Shown here piece by piece: positions 55,778-63,989 of a DNA stretch of 64,000 bases. Under the pieces are notes generated by a model that ran no database searches, was not told where the DNA came from, and saw only the letters and a program-made list of their open reading frames with translations. How positions within the stretch are numbered: position 1 is the stretch's first letter; each line of letters starts with the position of its first letter. Position numbers and translations under genes: made by a program. This DNA comes from Verrucomicrobium sp. (lineage in GTDB: Bacteria; Verrucomicrobiota; Verrucomicrobiia; Methylacidiphilales; GAS474): NCBI GenBank assembly GCA_028283855.1, contig JAPWJX010000005.1, forward strand, positions 124,001 to 188,000. The letters run 5' to 3'.

Positions 55778-57013
55778 TCAACCCGCAATCCACCGCAAGG
55801 CCTTCTCCGCCAGGCGGTCCAAGGCGGCGACGGCCTGTTCCAGGTGCTCTTCCCGGGTGTCCTCGATCTTGTTGTGGCTGATGCCGTGGAGGCTCTGGAC
55901 GAAGAGCATGACGGTGGGGACGCCCGCCCCGGCGACTTCCGAGGCGTCGTGCAGGGGGCCGGAGGGGATGCGGTAAAGGGTCCCGGCGGTCTGGGTCACC
56001 GCCTCGTCGCAGAAGGCCAGGAGCTGCTCGTGGAAGGGGCGCGGGGCGATGTGCCAGATGCGGCTCCATTCGACGGTAACACCGCCTTCCCGGGCGAAGC
56101 GCTCGCTGGCTTCCCGGGCCTCCCGCAGCATGGCGGCGAGCGCGGCGGCGTCCAGATGCCGCTGGTCCAGGGTGATGCGGCATTCCTCCACGACGCTGGT
56201 GACGATGCCGGGCTTGGTCGTGCAGGAGCCGATGGTGCAGACGCCGCCGTGGCGATCGGTGATGGCGTAGATTTCCGGGGACATCTTTGCGGCGGCCAGG
56301 AAGGCGTCTTTGCGGCGGTTCATCGGCGTGCTGCCGGAGTGGGCGGCCTGGCCTTTGAAGGTGATGGCGTGGCGTTCCACGCCGTAGGTGCCCAGGACGG
56401 TGGCCAGGGGCAGCCCGGCGTCCAGGAGGACGGGGCCCTGCTCGATGTGCAATTCCAGGTAGGCGGCGGCGTTTTTGAGTTCCTTGCCCGCGTCCTTGGC
56501 GGTGGCCAGGTCGATGCCGTGGGCTTTGACGGCTTCGGGGAGGGGGATGCCGTCCTTGTCCTTAAGGCTCCGGGCCTCGTCCAGGTCGAGCGTACCCGCG
56601 CAGGCGGAGGAGCCGAAGAGGCTCTTGCCGAAGCGGGCGCCTTCCTCGTCCGTCCAGTCGACGAGGCGGACGGTGACGGGGGGCTTCCCATTATATTGGG
56701 CGGCGATCCGGCGCAGGACTTCCAGCCCGGCCACGACGCCCAGGCAGCCGTCAAGCCAGCCGCCGTGGGGCACGGAGTCCAGGTGGCTGCCCAGAACCAG
56801 GGCTTTTTCCGACGCGCCCCGCAGGGTGACCCAGACGTTCCCGGCGGCGTCGGTCGCGGTTTCCACGGGCAGGCCCTTTAGCTTTTCCCGGAACCATTCC
56901 CGGGCTTTCGTCCAGGTAGGGGTGAAGGCGACGCGCTGGGCGCCGTTTTCATCGGCGGTGAGGGCGCGGAGTTCCTTCAGTTCGGCGACGGTCCGTTTCG
57001 GGTCGAGGGTCAT
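55778..57013 (-). CDS. Zn-dependent N-carbamoyl amino acid hydrolase (beta-ureidopropionase type, M20)
   Basis: The 411 residues have the M20 metal-site pattern: H77 (GSHLDSVPHGG), D88, E123/E124 (TDEEGARFG), H189 (ELHIEQGP) and a C-terminal His (GISHNK). The family includes allantoate amidohydrolase, L-carbamoylase and beta-ureidopropionase. Because it diverges from the pyrimidine genes, hydrolysis of N-carbamoyl-beta-alanine to beta-alanine, CO2 and NH3 fits best. It is one of the island's six genes but on the opposite strand. Confidence 0.88.
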   Translation of the reverse strand: MTLDPKRTVAELKELRALTADENGAQRVAFTPTWTKAREWFREKLKGLPVETATDAAGNVWVTLRGASEKALVLGSHLDSVPHGGWLDGCLGVVAGLEVLRRIAAQYNGKPPVTVRLVDWTDEEGARFGKSLFGSSACAGTLDLDEARSLKDKDGIPLPEAVKAHGIDLATAKDAGKELKNAAAYLELHIEQGPVLLDAGLPLATVLGTYGVERHAITFKGQAAHSGSTPMNRRKDAFLAAAKMSPEIYAITDRHGGVCTIGSCTTKPGIVTSVVEECRITLDQRHLDAAALAAMLREAREASERFAREGGVTVEWSRIWHIAPRPFHEQLLAFCDEAVTQTAGTLYRIPSGPLHDASEVAGAGVPTVMLFVQSLHGISHNKIEDTREEHLEQAVAALDRLAEKALRWIAG

Positions 57014-57131: not shown

Positions 57132-58259
57132 ATGGCAACACTGGCAACTACGGTCAACGGGCTCAAGCTTCCCAACCCCTTCATCATCGGTTCCGGGCCG
57201 CCGGGAACCAATCTCAACGTCATCCGCAAGGCCTTCCAGGAAGGCTGGGGCGCGGTCATCGCCAAGACGATCAGCCTGGACGCCTCCAAGGTGACCAACG
57301 TGAGCCCCCGCTACGCGAAGCTGTTTTCCAACAACCAGGAAGTCATCGGCTGGGAGAACATCGAGCTGATCAGCGACCGCCCGATCACCGCGTGGATCGA
57401 GGAGTTCAAGCGCTGCAAGGACGAGTTCCCGGACCGCATCCTCATCGCCTCCATCATGGAGGAGTTCGAGGAAGGCCGCTGGATCGAGCTGGTGCAGAAG
57501 TGCCAGGACGCGGGCGTCGACGCCTTCGAGCTGAACTTCTCCTGTCCGCACGGTCTGCCGGAGCGGAAGATGGGCGCCGCCATGGGCCAGAACCCGGAGA
57601 TCCTGGGCCAGGTCTGCAAGTGGGTGATGAGCGCCGCCAAGAAACCCGTCTGGGCCAAGATGACGCCGAACGTGACGCGCATCGAGGACCCCTCCCGCGC
57701 CGCGCTGGAAGCGGGCGTCGACGGCCTGGCCGCCATCAACACCATCCGCAGCGTCATGGGCGTGAACCTGGAGACGTTGCGGCCGGAGCCGAGCGTGGAG
57801 GGCTACACCACCCCCGGCGGCTATTCGTCCAAGGCGGTCCGCCCCATCGCCCTGCGCATGTGCATGGAGATCGCCCAGCTGATCCGCAAGGATTTTCCGG
57901 GCAAGACCCTTTCCGGCATGGGCGGCATCGAGACGGGGGAGGACGCCGCGCAGTTCATCCTCCTGGGCAGCGACACGGTGCAGGTCTGCACGGGCGTCAT
58001 GAAATTCGGCTACGAGTGCGTGAAGCCGATGCAGGAGCAGCTCCTGGCCTTCATGGAGAAGCACAAGTTCGAGACGCTGGCCGACTTCAAGGGCAAGAGC
58101 CTGGACTACTTCACCACCCACGCCGACCTCGTCGTGCGGCAGAAGGCGCGCAAGGCGGAGCAGAAGGCCGCCGCCGACGCCAAGAAGATGATCTCCGCCG
58201 ACACGGAGTGGAGCGGCGATTCCTTTGTCGCGCAGTCCAACGCCCTAGCCCGCAACTAA
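57132..58259 (+). CDS. preA: Dihydropyrimidine dehydrogenase catalytic subunit-like (PreA), without ferredoxin domain
   Basis: The 375 residues form the FMN TIM barrel of the dihydroorotate/dihydropyrimidine dehydrogenase family: LKLPNPFIIGSGPPGTN, AKTISLDASKVTN, NFSCPHGLPERKMGAAMGQN with C138 at the catalytic loop, and GMGGIETGEDAAQFILLGS. E. coli PreA (411 residues) ends in a ferredoxin domain with two 4Fe-4S clusters; here the tail (VVRQKARKAEQKAAADAKK onward) has no Cys. PreT, the FAD partner, is not in the window. The role is reduction of uracil/thymine. Confidence 0.9.
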   Translation: MATLATTVNGLKLPNPFIIGSGPPGTNLNVIRKAFQEGWGAVIAKTISLDASKVTNVSPRYAKLFSNNQEVIGWENIELISDRPITAWIEEFKRCKDEFPDRILIASIMEEFEEGRWIELVQKCQDAGVDAFELNFSCPHGLPERKMGAAMGQNPEILGQVCKWVMSAAKKPVWAKMTPNVTRIEDPSRAALEAGVDGLAAINTIRSVMGVNLETLRPEPSVEGYTTPGGYSSKAVRPIALRMCMEIAQLIRKDFPGKTLSGMGGIETGEDAAQFILLGSDTVQVCTGVMKFGYECVKPMQEQLLAFMEKHKFETLADFKGKSLDYFTTHADLVVRQKARKAEQKAAADAKKMISADTEWSGDSFVAQSNALARN

Positions 58260-58281: not shown

Positions 58282-59769
<1,488 letters not shown>

Positions 59770-59778
59770 CCCCGCCCC

Positions 59779-61161
59779 ATGGCGCTCCTCATCAAGAACG
59801 GCGAGATCGTCACCGCCGACCGCCGCTACAAGGCCGACGTCTGGTGCGAGGGGGAGACGATCACGAAGATCGGCCCCGGCCTTACCGCCCCAGCCGGGGC
59901 GGAGGTGATCGACGCGGCGGGGAAATACGTCTTCCCCGGCTTCATCGACCCGCACACCCACATCTACCTCCCCTTCATGGGGACCTACGCGAAGGACACC
60001 TACGCCACCGGCAGCCGCGCCGCCCTGGTCGGCGGGACGACGACGATCTTCGACATGTGCTGCCCGGCCCGCTCCCAGGAAACCTGGGACGGCTACCGGA
60101 CCTGGCGGGAGCGGAGCGAGGGGCAGTCCGCCTGCGACTACACCTTCCACATGGGCGTCACCCAGTTCGGGGAAAAGACGGAAGAGCAGCTGCGCCGAAT
60201 CGTCGCGGAGGGGCTTTCCTCCTTCAAAATCTTCCTGGCCTACAAGGGCGCCTTCGGCATCGACGACGCGGAACTCTACAAGACCCTCTCCCTGGCCAAG
60301 GAACTGGGTGTCATCGTCACCGCCCATTGCGAGAACGAGACCCTGGTCGCCTCCCTCCAGCAGCAGCTCATGGCGGAGGGAAAGACCGGCCCGGAGTATC
60401 ACTATTGGAGCCGCCCGCCCCGCGTGGAGGCCAGCGGCGTGCAGCATCTGACCTCCTTCGCGGAGCTGATCGGGACTTCTCTCTATATTGTCCACCTGAG
60501 CTGCAAGGAGGCGCTGGACGAGGCCCTGGCCGCCCGCGCCCGGGGCGTCGACGTGGCGGTGGAGACCCTCATCCAGTATCTCCTCCTTTCCAAGGACGAC
60601 GCGGAGCGCGCCGGATTCGAGGGGGCCAAGTTCGTCATGTCGCCGCCGCTGCGGGACGCCGCCAACCAGGACGTCCTGTGGAAGGCGCTCAAGGAGCACG
60701 CGATTCAGACCGTGGCGACCGACCACGCCCCGTTCGACTTCGCCGGGCAGAAGCCGATGGGGAAGGACGACTTCACGAAGATCCCCAACGGCATTCCCGC
60801 CCTGGAGGACCGGGTGAACCTCCTCTACACCTACGGCGTGGCGGCGGGCCGCATCGACCTCCAGACCTTCGTCGCCGCCGCCAGCACCAACGCGGCCAAG
60901 CTCTTCGACCTCTACCCGCGCAAGGGCGCGGTGGAGGAGGGGAGCGACGCCGACCTCGTCGTCTACGATCCCGCCTACCGCGGCGCGATCTCCGCGCGGA
61001 CTCATGCGATGAACGTCGACTACAGCGCGTTCGAGGGGTGGGAAATCCAAGGCCGCCCCTCCGTCGTCACCGTGCGCGGGGAGGTGGCGGTGCGGGACGG
61101 AAAATTCGTCGGGCAGCCGGGCCGGGGCCGCTTCCTGCAGCGGCAGCCCAGCCATTTCTGA
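59779..61161 (+). CDS. Dihydropyrimidinase / D-hydantoinase
   Basis: Opens dihydrouracil to N-carbamoyl-beta-alanine. The 460 residues match the binuclear metal site exactly as numbered in known hydantoinases: H59 and H61 (DPHTHIYLP), carboxylated K150 (SSFKIFLAYKG), H183 (TAHCENE), H239 and D315 (VATDHAPFD). It is between mmsA and the permease in the operon, so dihydropyrimidine is the natural substrate. Confidence 0.95.
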   Translation: MALLIKNGEIVTADRRYKADVWCEGETITKIGPGLTAPAGAEVIDAAGKYVFPGFIDPHTHIYLPFMGTYAKDTYATGSRAALVGGTTTIFDMCCPARSQETWDGYRTWRERSEGQSACDYTFHMGVTQFGEKTEEQLRRIVAEGLSSFKIFLAYKGAFGIDDAELYKTLSLAKELGVIVTAHCENETLVASLQQQLMAEGKTGPEYHYWSRPPRVEASGVQHLTSFAELIGTSLYIVHLSCKEALDEALAARARGVDVAVETLIQYLLLSKDDAERAGFEGAKFVMSPPLRDAANQDVLWKALKEHAIQTVATDHAPFDFAGQKPMGKDDFTKIPNGIPALEDRVNLLYTYGVAAGRIDLQTFVAAASTNAAKLFDLYPRKGAVEEGSDADLVVYDPAYRGAISARTHAMNVDYSAFEGWEIQGRPSVVTVRGEVAVRDGKFVGQPGRGRFLQRQPSHF

Positions 61162-61162
61162 C

Positions 61163-62650
61163 ATGAGCGGCATCGCCCACGCCGACGCCTTCACGGAGGT
61201 GGTGAACGTCCAGGAAAGCCACCTCTACAGCGAGGACCTTTCCCCCGTCCGCCCCCGGGATCGCAGCTGGGGCGTTTGGAACTACGCCGCCCTCTGGGTC
61301 TCCATGGCGGCCTGCATCCCCACCTACATGCTGGCCTCCTCCCTCATCGGCGGCGGCATGAGCTGGTGGCAGGCCGTGGCCACCATCTTCCTGGGGAACG
61401 TCATTCTCCTGGTCCCCATGCTCCTCAACGCGGAGGCCGGGACCCGCTACGGCATCTCCTTCCCCGTCTACTGCCGCGCGGCCTTCGGCGTCCGCGGGGC
61501 GAATGTCCCGGCCCTCCTGCGCGCGCTGGTCGCCTGCGGGTGGTTCGGCATCCAGTCGTGGATCGGCGGGGCGGCCATCCACCAGATCCTGGCCGTCTTC
61601 TTCCCCGCGCTGGGGCAGGGGACGCCGATCGGCTGGCTCGGCATCACCGCTTCCCAGCTGGTCTGCTTCCTCTTCTTCTGGGGGATCAACATGGCGGTGA
61701 TCTACCGGGGCATCGACTCGATCCGCTTCCTCCTCAGCGTGAAGGCGCCGCTCCTCATCGCCCTGGGGCTGGCCCTGCTGGACTGGGCCTACCGGCACGC
61801 GGGCGGCTTCGGGCCCATTCTTTCCCAGCCCTCCGCCTTCGATCCCGGCCAGCCGCAGGCGGGGCGCTTCTGGGGCTACTTCTTTCCCGCGCTGACCGGC
61901 ATCGTCGGCTTCTGGGCCACGCTCTCCCTGAACATCCCGGACTTCACCCGCTACGCCAAGACGCAGCGGGCGCAGGTGCTGGGGCAGAGCCTGGGGCTGC
62001 CGTTCACCATGGCGCTCTACTCCTTTATCGGCGTGGCCGTCACCTCCGCCACGGCGGTCATCTACGGGAAGGCGATCTGGGATCCGGTGGAGGTCCTCAC
62101 CCACATGCGCAATCCCGGCGTCCTTGTCATTTCCATGGTGGCCCTCTGCATCGCCACTCTGGCCACGAACCTGGCCGCCAACGTGGTCAGCCCGGCCAAC
62201 GACCTGGCCCATCTTTCCCCGAAGCATATCTCCTTCCGCACCGGCGGTTTCATCACCGGGCTGGTCGGCCTCTTTATGATGCCGTGGAAGCTTCTGGCCG
62301 ATCCTTCCGGCTACATCTTCACCTGGCTCATCGGCTACAGCGCCCTGCTGGGACCGATCGGCGGCATCCTCATCGCCGATTACTTCGTCTACCGGAAGCG
62401 GCACCTGAAGCTGGCCGCGCTCTACCACGCGCGCGGGGAATACGCCTTCACCGGAGGCTACAGCGTCGTGGCGCTGGCCGCGCTGGCGTTGGCCGTGCTG
62501 CCGAACCTGCCCGGCTTCCTCATGACGATCGGCGTCCTGCATTGGCACGCGCCGTTCCTGCTCTCCCTTTACCACTACGCCTGGTTCGTCGGCTTCGGCC
62601 TGGCGTTCGTCCTCTACCTCATCCTCCGCCTCCCCTTCAAAAATGCATAA
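61163..62650 (+). CDS. NCS1-family nucleobase permease
   Basis: The 495 residues have twelve TM segments and the NCS1 start [20 protein letters not shown], with [20 protein letters not shown] and the [20 protein letters not shown] loop; the mid-protein substrate region has the [10 protein letters not shown] motif. NCS1 members include Mhp1 (hydantoins), PucI (allantoin) and uracil/cytosine permeases. Beside pyrimidine catabolic genes it most likely imports uracil, thymine or dihydropyrimidine. Overlaps the aminotransferase by 8 bases. Confidence 0.9.
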
Positions 62651-63989
62651 GAACATGCCCGTCCTCCCTCCCTTCAACCATCAGCCCGCTCCCTACACCG
62701 GCCCCTCCGCGGAGGAGGTCCTGGCGCTGCGGAAGCAGTATCTAAGCCCCGCGCTCTTCCACCTCTACAAGAAGCCGCTCATGATCGTGGAAGGGAAGGG
62801 GCAGTATCTCTATGACGAGACGGGCCGCCGCTATCTGGACGCCTTCGCCGGCATCGTCACCGTGAGCTGCGGCCACTGCCACCCGCACATCGTGGCGGCG
62901 GGCAACCGCCAGAACGAGCTGCTCCAGCACGCCACCACCATCTACCTGCATCCGAACATCGCCGAATACGGCAAGGCCCTGGCCGACAAGATGCCGGGCG
63001 ACTTGAAGGTGGTCTACTTCGTCAACTCCGGCTCGGAGGCCAACGACCTGGCCATCCTCATGGCCCGCGCCTACACCGGGAATTACGACGTGGTGGCCCT
63101 GCGCAACGCCTACCACGGCGGCAACGCCTCCGGCATGGCCCTGACGGCCCATTCCACCTGGAAGTTCAACGTGCCCCAGCCCTTCGGCGTCCACCACGCC
63201 CTGGCGCCCGATCCCTACCGCGGCCCGTGGGGCCACGATGACGCGGAAGCGGGCAAGAAATACGGACGCGACGTGAAGAGCGTCATCGACTACGCCACCT
63301 CCGGCAAGGTCGCGGCCTTCATCGCGGAGTCGATCCAGGGCGTCGGCGGCGCCGTCGTCTTCCCGGACGGCTACTTGAAGGAAGCCTACGGCCACGTCCG
63401 CGCGGCGGGCGGCGTTTGCATCGCGGACGAGGTGCAGGCGGGCTTTGGCCGCACCGGCACCCACTTCTGGGGCTTCGAGACGCAGGGCGTCGTCCCGGAC
63501 ATCGTGACGATGGCCAAGGGCATCGGCAACGGCGTGCCGCTGGCCGCCGTGGTCACCACGCCGCAAATCGCCCAGGCGATGACCAGCCGCATCCACTTCA
63601 ACACCTTCGGCGGCAACCCCGTGGTCTGCGCCCAGGGGAAGGCCGTGCTGGAGGTCATCGAGAAGGAGAAGCTCCAGGACAACGCGCTGAAGATCGGCGC
63701 GACCCTCGACGCGGGCCTGCGCAAGCTCCAGCAGAAGCACTCCCTCATCGGCGAGGTGCGGGGCAAGGGCCTCATGATCGGCGTGGAGCTGGTGAAGGAC
63801 CGCGCGACGAAGGACCCGGCCAAGGAAGAAACCCTCCAGGTCTACGAGAAGGCCCGGGAGCTGGGCCTCCTCATCGGCAAGGGCGGCTTCTTCGGCAACG
63901 TCCTGCGGGTGAAGCCCCCCATGTGCCTGACGGAGGCCGACGCCGCTTTCCTCCTGGAAGTCCTCGACGAGTCGTTCGCGAGCGCCTAG
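62643..63989 (+). CDS. Class III PLP aminotransferase (beta-alanine--pyruvate / AGXT2-like)
   Basis: The 448 residues show PLP lysine K292 (MAKGIGNG), D262 ([16 protein letters not shown]) and [20 protein letters not shown] in the cofactor site. AGXT2-type enzymes use beta-alanine or 3-aminoisobutyrate with pyruvate or glyoxylate, which would give malonate semialdehyde for MmsA. The start may be ATG 62643 or 62655. It ends 11 bases before the window edge, so more of the operon may follow. Confidence 0.9.

Follow-up and report, generated by a model that had tools for sequence, protein, structure and literature searches.

A bacterial family of predicted FMN-only dihydropyrimidine dehydrogenases with the architecture of plant PYD1, represented in a putative uracil-degradation operon of Verrucomicrobium sp.

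In plants, dihydropyrimidine dehydrogenase (DPD) has been described as a lone barrel. According to the available text of PMC9930899, the rice and Arabidopsis enzymes are barrels of about 400 residues that lack Fe-S, FAD and NADPH sites, rice DPD aligns poorly to the pig enzyme over its last 40 residues, and for the N-terminal half of DPD no homologue was found in plants; soluble rice DPD was inactive with NADH, with NADPH and in a class 1A dihydroorotate dehydrogenase (DHODH) assay. In the accessible part of PMC2713857 the authors leave the compulsory partner of the Arabidopsis enzyme unidentified, and the available portions of both reports call the electron donor of the plant enzyme unknown and the recombinant plant protein inactive (PMC2713857, PMC9930899). 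Among bacteria, PydAc of Clostridium chromiireducens receives electrons from ferredoxin via its own ferredoxin domains and is inactive without cluster reconstitution, as the excerpted text of PMC7332683 states. The survey of bacterial PydA published in 2020 made the ferredoxin domain a requirement for inclusion (PMC7332683, same excerpt), and the short family described here was invisible to it for that reason. A bacterial FMN-only DPD was absent from the titles and abstract openings retrieved by a search of open-access literature, subscription papers lying outside its scope.

The window, i.e. the whole stretch of 64,000 nucleotides of Verrucomicrobium sp. DNA that was analysed, contains at 57132..58259 (+) an open reading frame with an ATG start, AGGAGG just 5' of it and the stop codon included, which encodes 375 aa. 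We annotate the product, hereafter short PreA, as a predicted dihydropyrimidine dehydrogenase of the plant PYD1 type on the grounds of its NF006183 match, its alignment with pig DPD, the absence of Fer4 and the family alignment. With NF006183, the NCBIfam PreA model, the protein scores 396.2 bits against a cut-off of 335 and covers model positions 1-334 of 422; the Pfam search gave DHO_dh, a marginal Dus match (20.8 bits vs 20.4) and no Fer4. The alignment with pig DPD pairs residues 5-323 with 534-853 and places C138 (in the motif NFSCPHG) on pig C671. In this alignment K45, T46, N76, E78, I80 and N135 correspond to pig K574, T575, N609, E611, I613 and N668, and S137, C138, K176, N203 and T204 to pig S670, C671, K709, N736 and T737; apart from C671 and the N-T pair, we take these pig positions to be uracil and FMN residues. 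C671 mutants occur among the structure matches, and the pig DPD entry in the PDB that is mutated at this position is C671A. The N-T pair belongs to the active-site residues according to the accessible part of PMC2713857. All of the DPD uracil/FMN residues tested are kept in short PreA and are invariant in the 83 complete members of its family. The structure model, calculated from 102 aligned sequences (mean pLDDT 85.6) and superseding a poor earlier one from 11 sequences (pLDDT 71.9), finds pig DPD as its best PDB match (Z 42.6, rmsd 3.0, 348 residues), followed by DHODHs. The sequence-only reading had described a full FMN barrel with the Cys loop, and the above-cut-off NF006183 score and the equivalence of C138 with pig C671 bear this out. 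Measured against PreA, the protein thus has the entire barrel part (FMN barrel, catalytic Cys and uracil residues) and is missing the C-terminal domain with two [4Fe-4S] clusters; measured against PYD1, it has the DPD barrel with the FMN and uracil residues, and the Fe-S, FAD and NAD(P)H modules are absent.

At E <= 1e-60, matches to short PreA were found in 36 of the 387 genomes of the phylum. They fall into two groups: 11, with the genome under study included, match over the full length at 71-100% identity, and after a gap the other 25 follow at 36-44%. The loci of 19 of these 25 long-type relatives were read, and the two-cluster tail is present in all 19. A scan of named genomes returned 448 relatives, from which 80 loci, listed at 70-80% identity, were kept, almost all of them titled Verrucomicrobiota and some Planctomycetota. 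The short family is tight, at 70-81% identity, and the named strains that carry its gene include Roseibacillus persicicus KCTC 12988 (L120) and Luteolibacter marinus NBU1238 (L102). Judged by sequence comparison, short PreA is therefore neither a fragment nor a one-off, but a member of a tight bacterial family. Two plasmid genes were noted besides. Rhizobium sp. ACO-34A plasmid pRACO34Ad (L135:3995-5101) codes for another type of short PreA-like barrel, of 368 aa and without an Fe-S tail, which shares 35.6% identity with the window protein over 340 residues, forms a separate long branch and is encoded next to an ABC transporter and a D-amino-acid oxidase gene. Selenomonas ruminantium pSRC1 (L134:2698-4206) carries a preA with no adjoining PreT listed in the plasmid annotation, which is incomplete.

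The position of the ferredoxin domain is taken in short PreA by a Cys-free C-terminal tail of residues 322-375 (58095..58256, +, with the W360 codon inside). The earlier description of a Cys-less tail in place of the two-cluster ferredoxin domain holds, but its length of 40 residues does not: about 54 aa lie beyond residue ~322. Conservation of the tail was assessed in 83 complete short members, namely the window protein and 82 of the 90 short rows first considered (L002-L011, L043-L122); those left out were the duplicates L084 and L120, the cut-off L112, L119 and L093, L074 and L092, whose C-terminal ends are missing, and L106, which is complete. The 83 proteins are 365-397 aa long (median 375), CxxCxxC is absent from every one of them, and the tail holds no Cys in 80 and a single one in three. 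D357, W360, Q368 and L372 are invariant throughout, and the motif W-x-G-D-x-F-V is exact in 75. Since it is conserved across the complete family, the tail goes beyond chance, and the possibility of a long PreA gene cut short or decayed into a pseudogene was rejected because all 83 members share this ending. The structure model has a helix at 330-348 that is for the most part confident; beyond about residue 345 confidence is low, and for that reason we claim no position for the tail. The structural alignment reaches pig residue 996, within the ferredoxin domain, though this part rests on low-confidence helices. Placed where PreA has its ferredoxin domain, the tail may shape a dimer or a docking site.

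That short PreA works as a dihydroorotate dehydrogenase, or in some other DHODH-like role, is barely credible. The fold is the same, and DHODHs come directly after DPD among the structure matches; however, all NCBIfam DHODH models stay below their cut-offs on this protein (TIGR01037 181.5 of 270, NF005574 172.3 of 269, NF002702 84.3 of 301, with the class 2 models at about 45-51 against 267-477), and the residues are of the uracil type, as is the operon. Moreover, a separate DHODH is encoded in 11/11 short-type genomes and is quinone-dependent in the three examined, that of the present genome included. On the strength of the sub-cut-off models and these separate enzymes the DHODH identity was rejected, and a close PyrD relationship, which might have explained the missing domain, was looked for and is absent.

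The plant enzyme offers a closer parallel. The comparison used a presumed Arabidopsis PYD1 sequence, probably that of At3g17810, which is assumed here to be correct. It shows 59.6% identity to the window protein, tail included, and 59-65% to full-length short members, as against at most 44% to long ones. In a tree calculated without the tail columns it groups with the short family at 98/99. The class 1B outgroup of L. lactis and row L135 stood on very long branches in this first tree; in the tree rebuilt without LlPyrDB, L135, L018 and L134 the support is 98/96. Kinship between the bacterial short family and plant PYD1 is likely from these sequences, and we grade it as likely and not as proven because the AU test with the presumed plant sequence leaves the placement of the plant with the long type standing (p = 0.347). 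For a clade made up of bacterial short rows only, the same test gives neither support nor rejection (p = 0.522). What had looked like an oddity peculiar to one gene is not so, as plant PYD1 has this architecture too and the whole bacterial family shares it.

The genomic context of short preA points to pyrimidine degradation. Downstream and on the same strand lie genes for a CoA-acylating (methyl)malonate-semialdehyde dehydrogenase (58282..59769, +; TIGR01722, 659.7 bits, cut-off 448.5), a dihydropyrimidinase (59779..61161, +; TIGR02033, 557.8 bits, cut-off 393.25), an NCS1 family nucleobase:cation symporter (61163..62650, +; TIGR00800, 399.4 bits, cut-off 353.1) and a class-III aminotransferase (62643..63989, +; PF00202, 308.2 bits). 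The last is probably a beta-alanine aminotransferase, and none of the NCBIfam models listed for it exceeds its cut-off. From preA onward the genes are spaced by 22, 9 and 1 bases, and the final pair share 8 bases. A divergent gene upstream (55778..57013, -) encodes an amidase of the hydantoinase/carbamoylase family (TIGR01879, 285.9 bits, cut-off 204), which would likely serve the ureidopropionase step. These neighbours recur over the 89 short-type loci: dihydropyrimidinase in 61, dehydrogenase in 61, amidase in 53, aminotransferase in 47 and transporter in 40, with no further neighbour cluster in more than 11; preA itself was not called by the ORF selection in five of the loci. Where at least 6 kb was available on both sides (37 loci), 28 hold at least two of the five pathway genes, four hold one and five none.

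The encoded route would lead from uracil via dihydrouracil, ureidopropionate, beta-alanine and malonate semialdehyde to acetyl-CoA, with short PreA catalysing the first step. As the gene opens an operon that runs from uracil to beta-alanine and beyond, the reductive, uracil-consuming direction is likely. The sequence-only reading had allowed for a distinct dehydrogenase working in either direction; the reductive half of this suggestion gains from the operon context and the oxidative half becomes improbable. A dihydrouracil oxidase or dehydrogenase is indeed conceivable in principle, as FMN-only dihydrouracil oxidases exist in fungi according to the accessible part of PMC9585004, but the dihydropyrimidinase, carbamoylase, aminotransferase and semialdehyde dehydrogenase of the operon consume dihydrouracil and its products, and the same text describes the fungal enzymes as Ura1-like (PMC9585004). 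We consider oxidation very unlikely.

Several operons contain additional small genes. In nine of the 89 loci (L082:11127-11636, L049, L050, L059, L060, L066, L096, L100 and L106) a small protein that looks by eye like a four-helix-bundle or 23S intervening-sequence protein is encoded within the operon, often directly behind preA. In L045, L055, L090 and L093, three of them records titled Opitutaceae and the fourth uncultured Opitutaceae, a protein that looks like a GNAT acetyltransferase by eye is encoded between preA and the dehydrogenase gene. With this appearance, the small ORFs behind preA were rejected as redox partners.

A PreT-like gene was not found in any of the 89 short-type loci (1.41 Mb, window included) with E. 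coli or Mycetohabitans PreT as the query, whereas the same search found one in 18 of 19 long-type loci of only about 4 kb each. Nor was there a PreT-like gene in 69,244 further bases of the same contig beginning just after preA, or any match to PF14691, the Fe-S domain of PreT/GltD, in the whole genome (2.56 Mb, 9 contigs, 95.6% complete). PF14691 is present in 19/19 long-type genomes and absent from 9/11 short-type genomes; in the remaining two the matches are weaker, with best E values of 4.5e-21 (G122) and 2.3e-19 (G215). Among 50 further short-type genomes, taken from 78 non-duplicate loci, 31 hold some PF14691 protein, 15 of them at E <= 1e-30, and these genomes may possess an unlinked PreT-like donor. 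The motif CxxCxxCxxxC does not occur in any open segment of at least 50 aa across the whole window. An Fe-S motif was present in 10/89 loci, and its sole repeat is SdhB, the gene of which lies close to short preA in L037, L038 and L102 (named by a model in L037, and by motif and cluster in the other two). With no recurrent Fe-S ORF among the 89 loci, a neighbouring gene that supplies the missing Fe-S domain was ruled out. The earlier statements that no PreT is in view, and that electrons do not arrive via PreT and a PreA ferredoxin domain, are thereby extended from the window to the sequence beyond preA and to the genome, and the tail without Cys agrees with the second of them.

The search for general carriers covered Fer4_7, Fer2 and Flavodoxin_1. 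In the genome under study Fer4_7 matched two proteins, GlcF-like and SdhB, Fer2 matched SdhB alone and Flavodoxin_1 a single CysJ-like domain; a free ferredoxin was not found with Fer4_7 and Fer2, although these searches could overlook small ferredoxins that belong to other Pfam families. No free 2[4Fe-4S] ferredoxin and no NuoI-like subunit are among the Fer4_7 matches, and the genome may be without complex I. Fer4_7 proteins of some kind occur in 11/11 short-type genomes, and one of these genomes (G166) gave no match with Flavodoxin_1. No one recognised carrier fits all, and so the sources of electrons that remain are NAD(P)H itself, a flavoprotein reductase of general function and a partner that escaped recognition.

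We favour, with a probability of roughly 0.6, that short PreA is a bacterial plant-type FMN-only dihydropyrimidine dehydrogenase which is reduced by a general cellular donor and not by a dedicated FAD/Fe-S subunit. Each barrel would carry one FMN, bind uracil and perform acid/base chemistry as in DPD and PreA, with Fe-S, FAD and NAD(P)H-binding modules lacking; the FMN would obtain electrons from a flavodoxin-like protein or a shared flavoprotein reductase, direct reduction by NAD(P)H being less likely, and a PreT-like dedicated subunit would not be used. Of this reading, the fold, the residues, the missing modules, the family and the operon are read from sequence, and the activity, its direction, the donor and the part played by the tail are inferred. 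Dihydrouridine synthases transfer hydride from NAD(P)H to FMN in a ping-pong mechanism. Should short PreA work in the same way, with hydride passing directly from NADPH or NADH to FMN in a ping-pong reaction with uracil, no carrier would be needed, which fits a genome without free ferredoxin, and the shared barrel fold class and the marginal Pfam Dus match point in the same direction. We nevertheless hold direct reduction to be doubtful: the rice enzyme, though tagged and truncated, was inactive with 150 uM NADPH or NADH, and its authors report an NADPH site to be absent (available text of PMC9930899). This failure of the rice enzyme to use NAD(P)H is the main reason for putting a general protein donor first. 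A dedicated partner unlike PreT, encoded elsewhere and escaping recognition, could instead bind the tail and feed the FMN; the strong conservation of the tail with its invariant Trp360 agrees with such a protein, and plant authors have postulated an extra one (PMC9930899 and PMC2713857, accessible parts). We think it unlikely, given that no gene outside the pathway recurs beside short preA, an argument which bears on the neighbourhood only.

The preferred reading, a plant-type enzyme with a general donor, suggests that the NCBIfam-model name 'NAD-dependent ... PreA' is wrong on the electron route for the short family. It also makes a bacterial family with PYD1 architecture, mostly tidy operons and named strains a workable system for the donor search: the same stripped-down enzyme occurs with no partner gene, and hence the question of what powers the plant enzyme becomes testable in a bacterium. 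A bolder proposal, which we advance tentatively, is that short PreA and plant PYD1 together form a third, FMN-only class of DPD, in which the W-x-G-D-x-F-V tail replaces the ferredoxin domain in the enzyme's own electron intake; the plant gene would derive from, or share its origin with, a Verrucomicrobiota/Planctomycetota line, and a cultured carrier could reveal the plant donor.

Compared with known systems, short PreA shares the FMN-only barrel and the fold with class 1A DHODH, from which it differs in its NF002702 score (84.3 of 301) and in a context of the uracil and not the orotate type. With mammalian DPD (pig, 1gth) it has the barrel fold and the active site in common. The FMN barrel and the catalytic Cys are also those of E. 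coli PreTA/PydA, whose PreA is 40.6% identical over 323 residues, but the two-cluster ferredoxin domain and PreT are lacking. PydAc of C. chromiireducens resembles short PreA in having no FAD/NADPH module and in its Pyd gene cluster; unlike short PreA, which has none, it possesses two ferredoxin domains of its own (excerpted text of PMC7332683), and since its electrons pass through them it is a neighbour and not the same thing. The nearest likeness is plant PYD1 (Arabidopsis; rice OsDHPD), which is likewise a lone FMN barrel with uracil and FMN sites, no Fe-S, FAD or NADPH sites and a C-terminal end outside the alignment with pig DPD; unlike its plant counterpart, the window protein is bacterial, has no transit peptide and has its gene in one operon with the remaining pathway genes.
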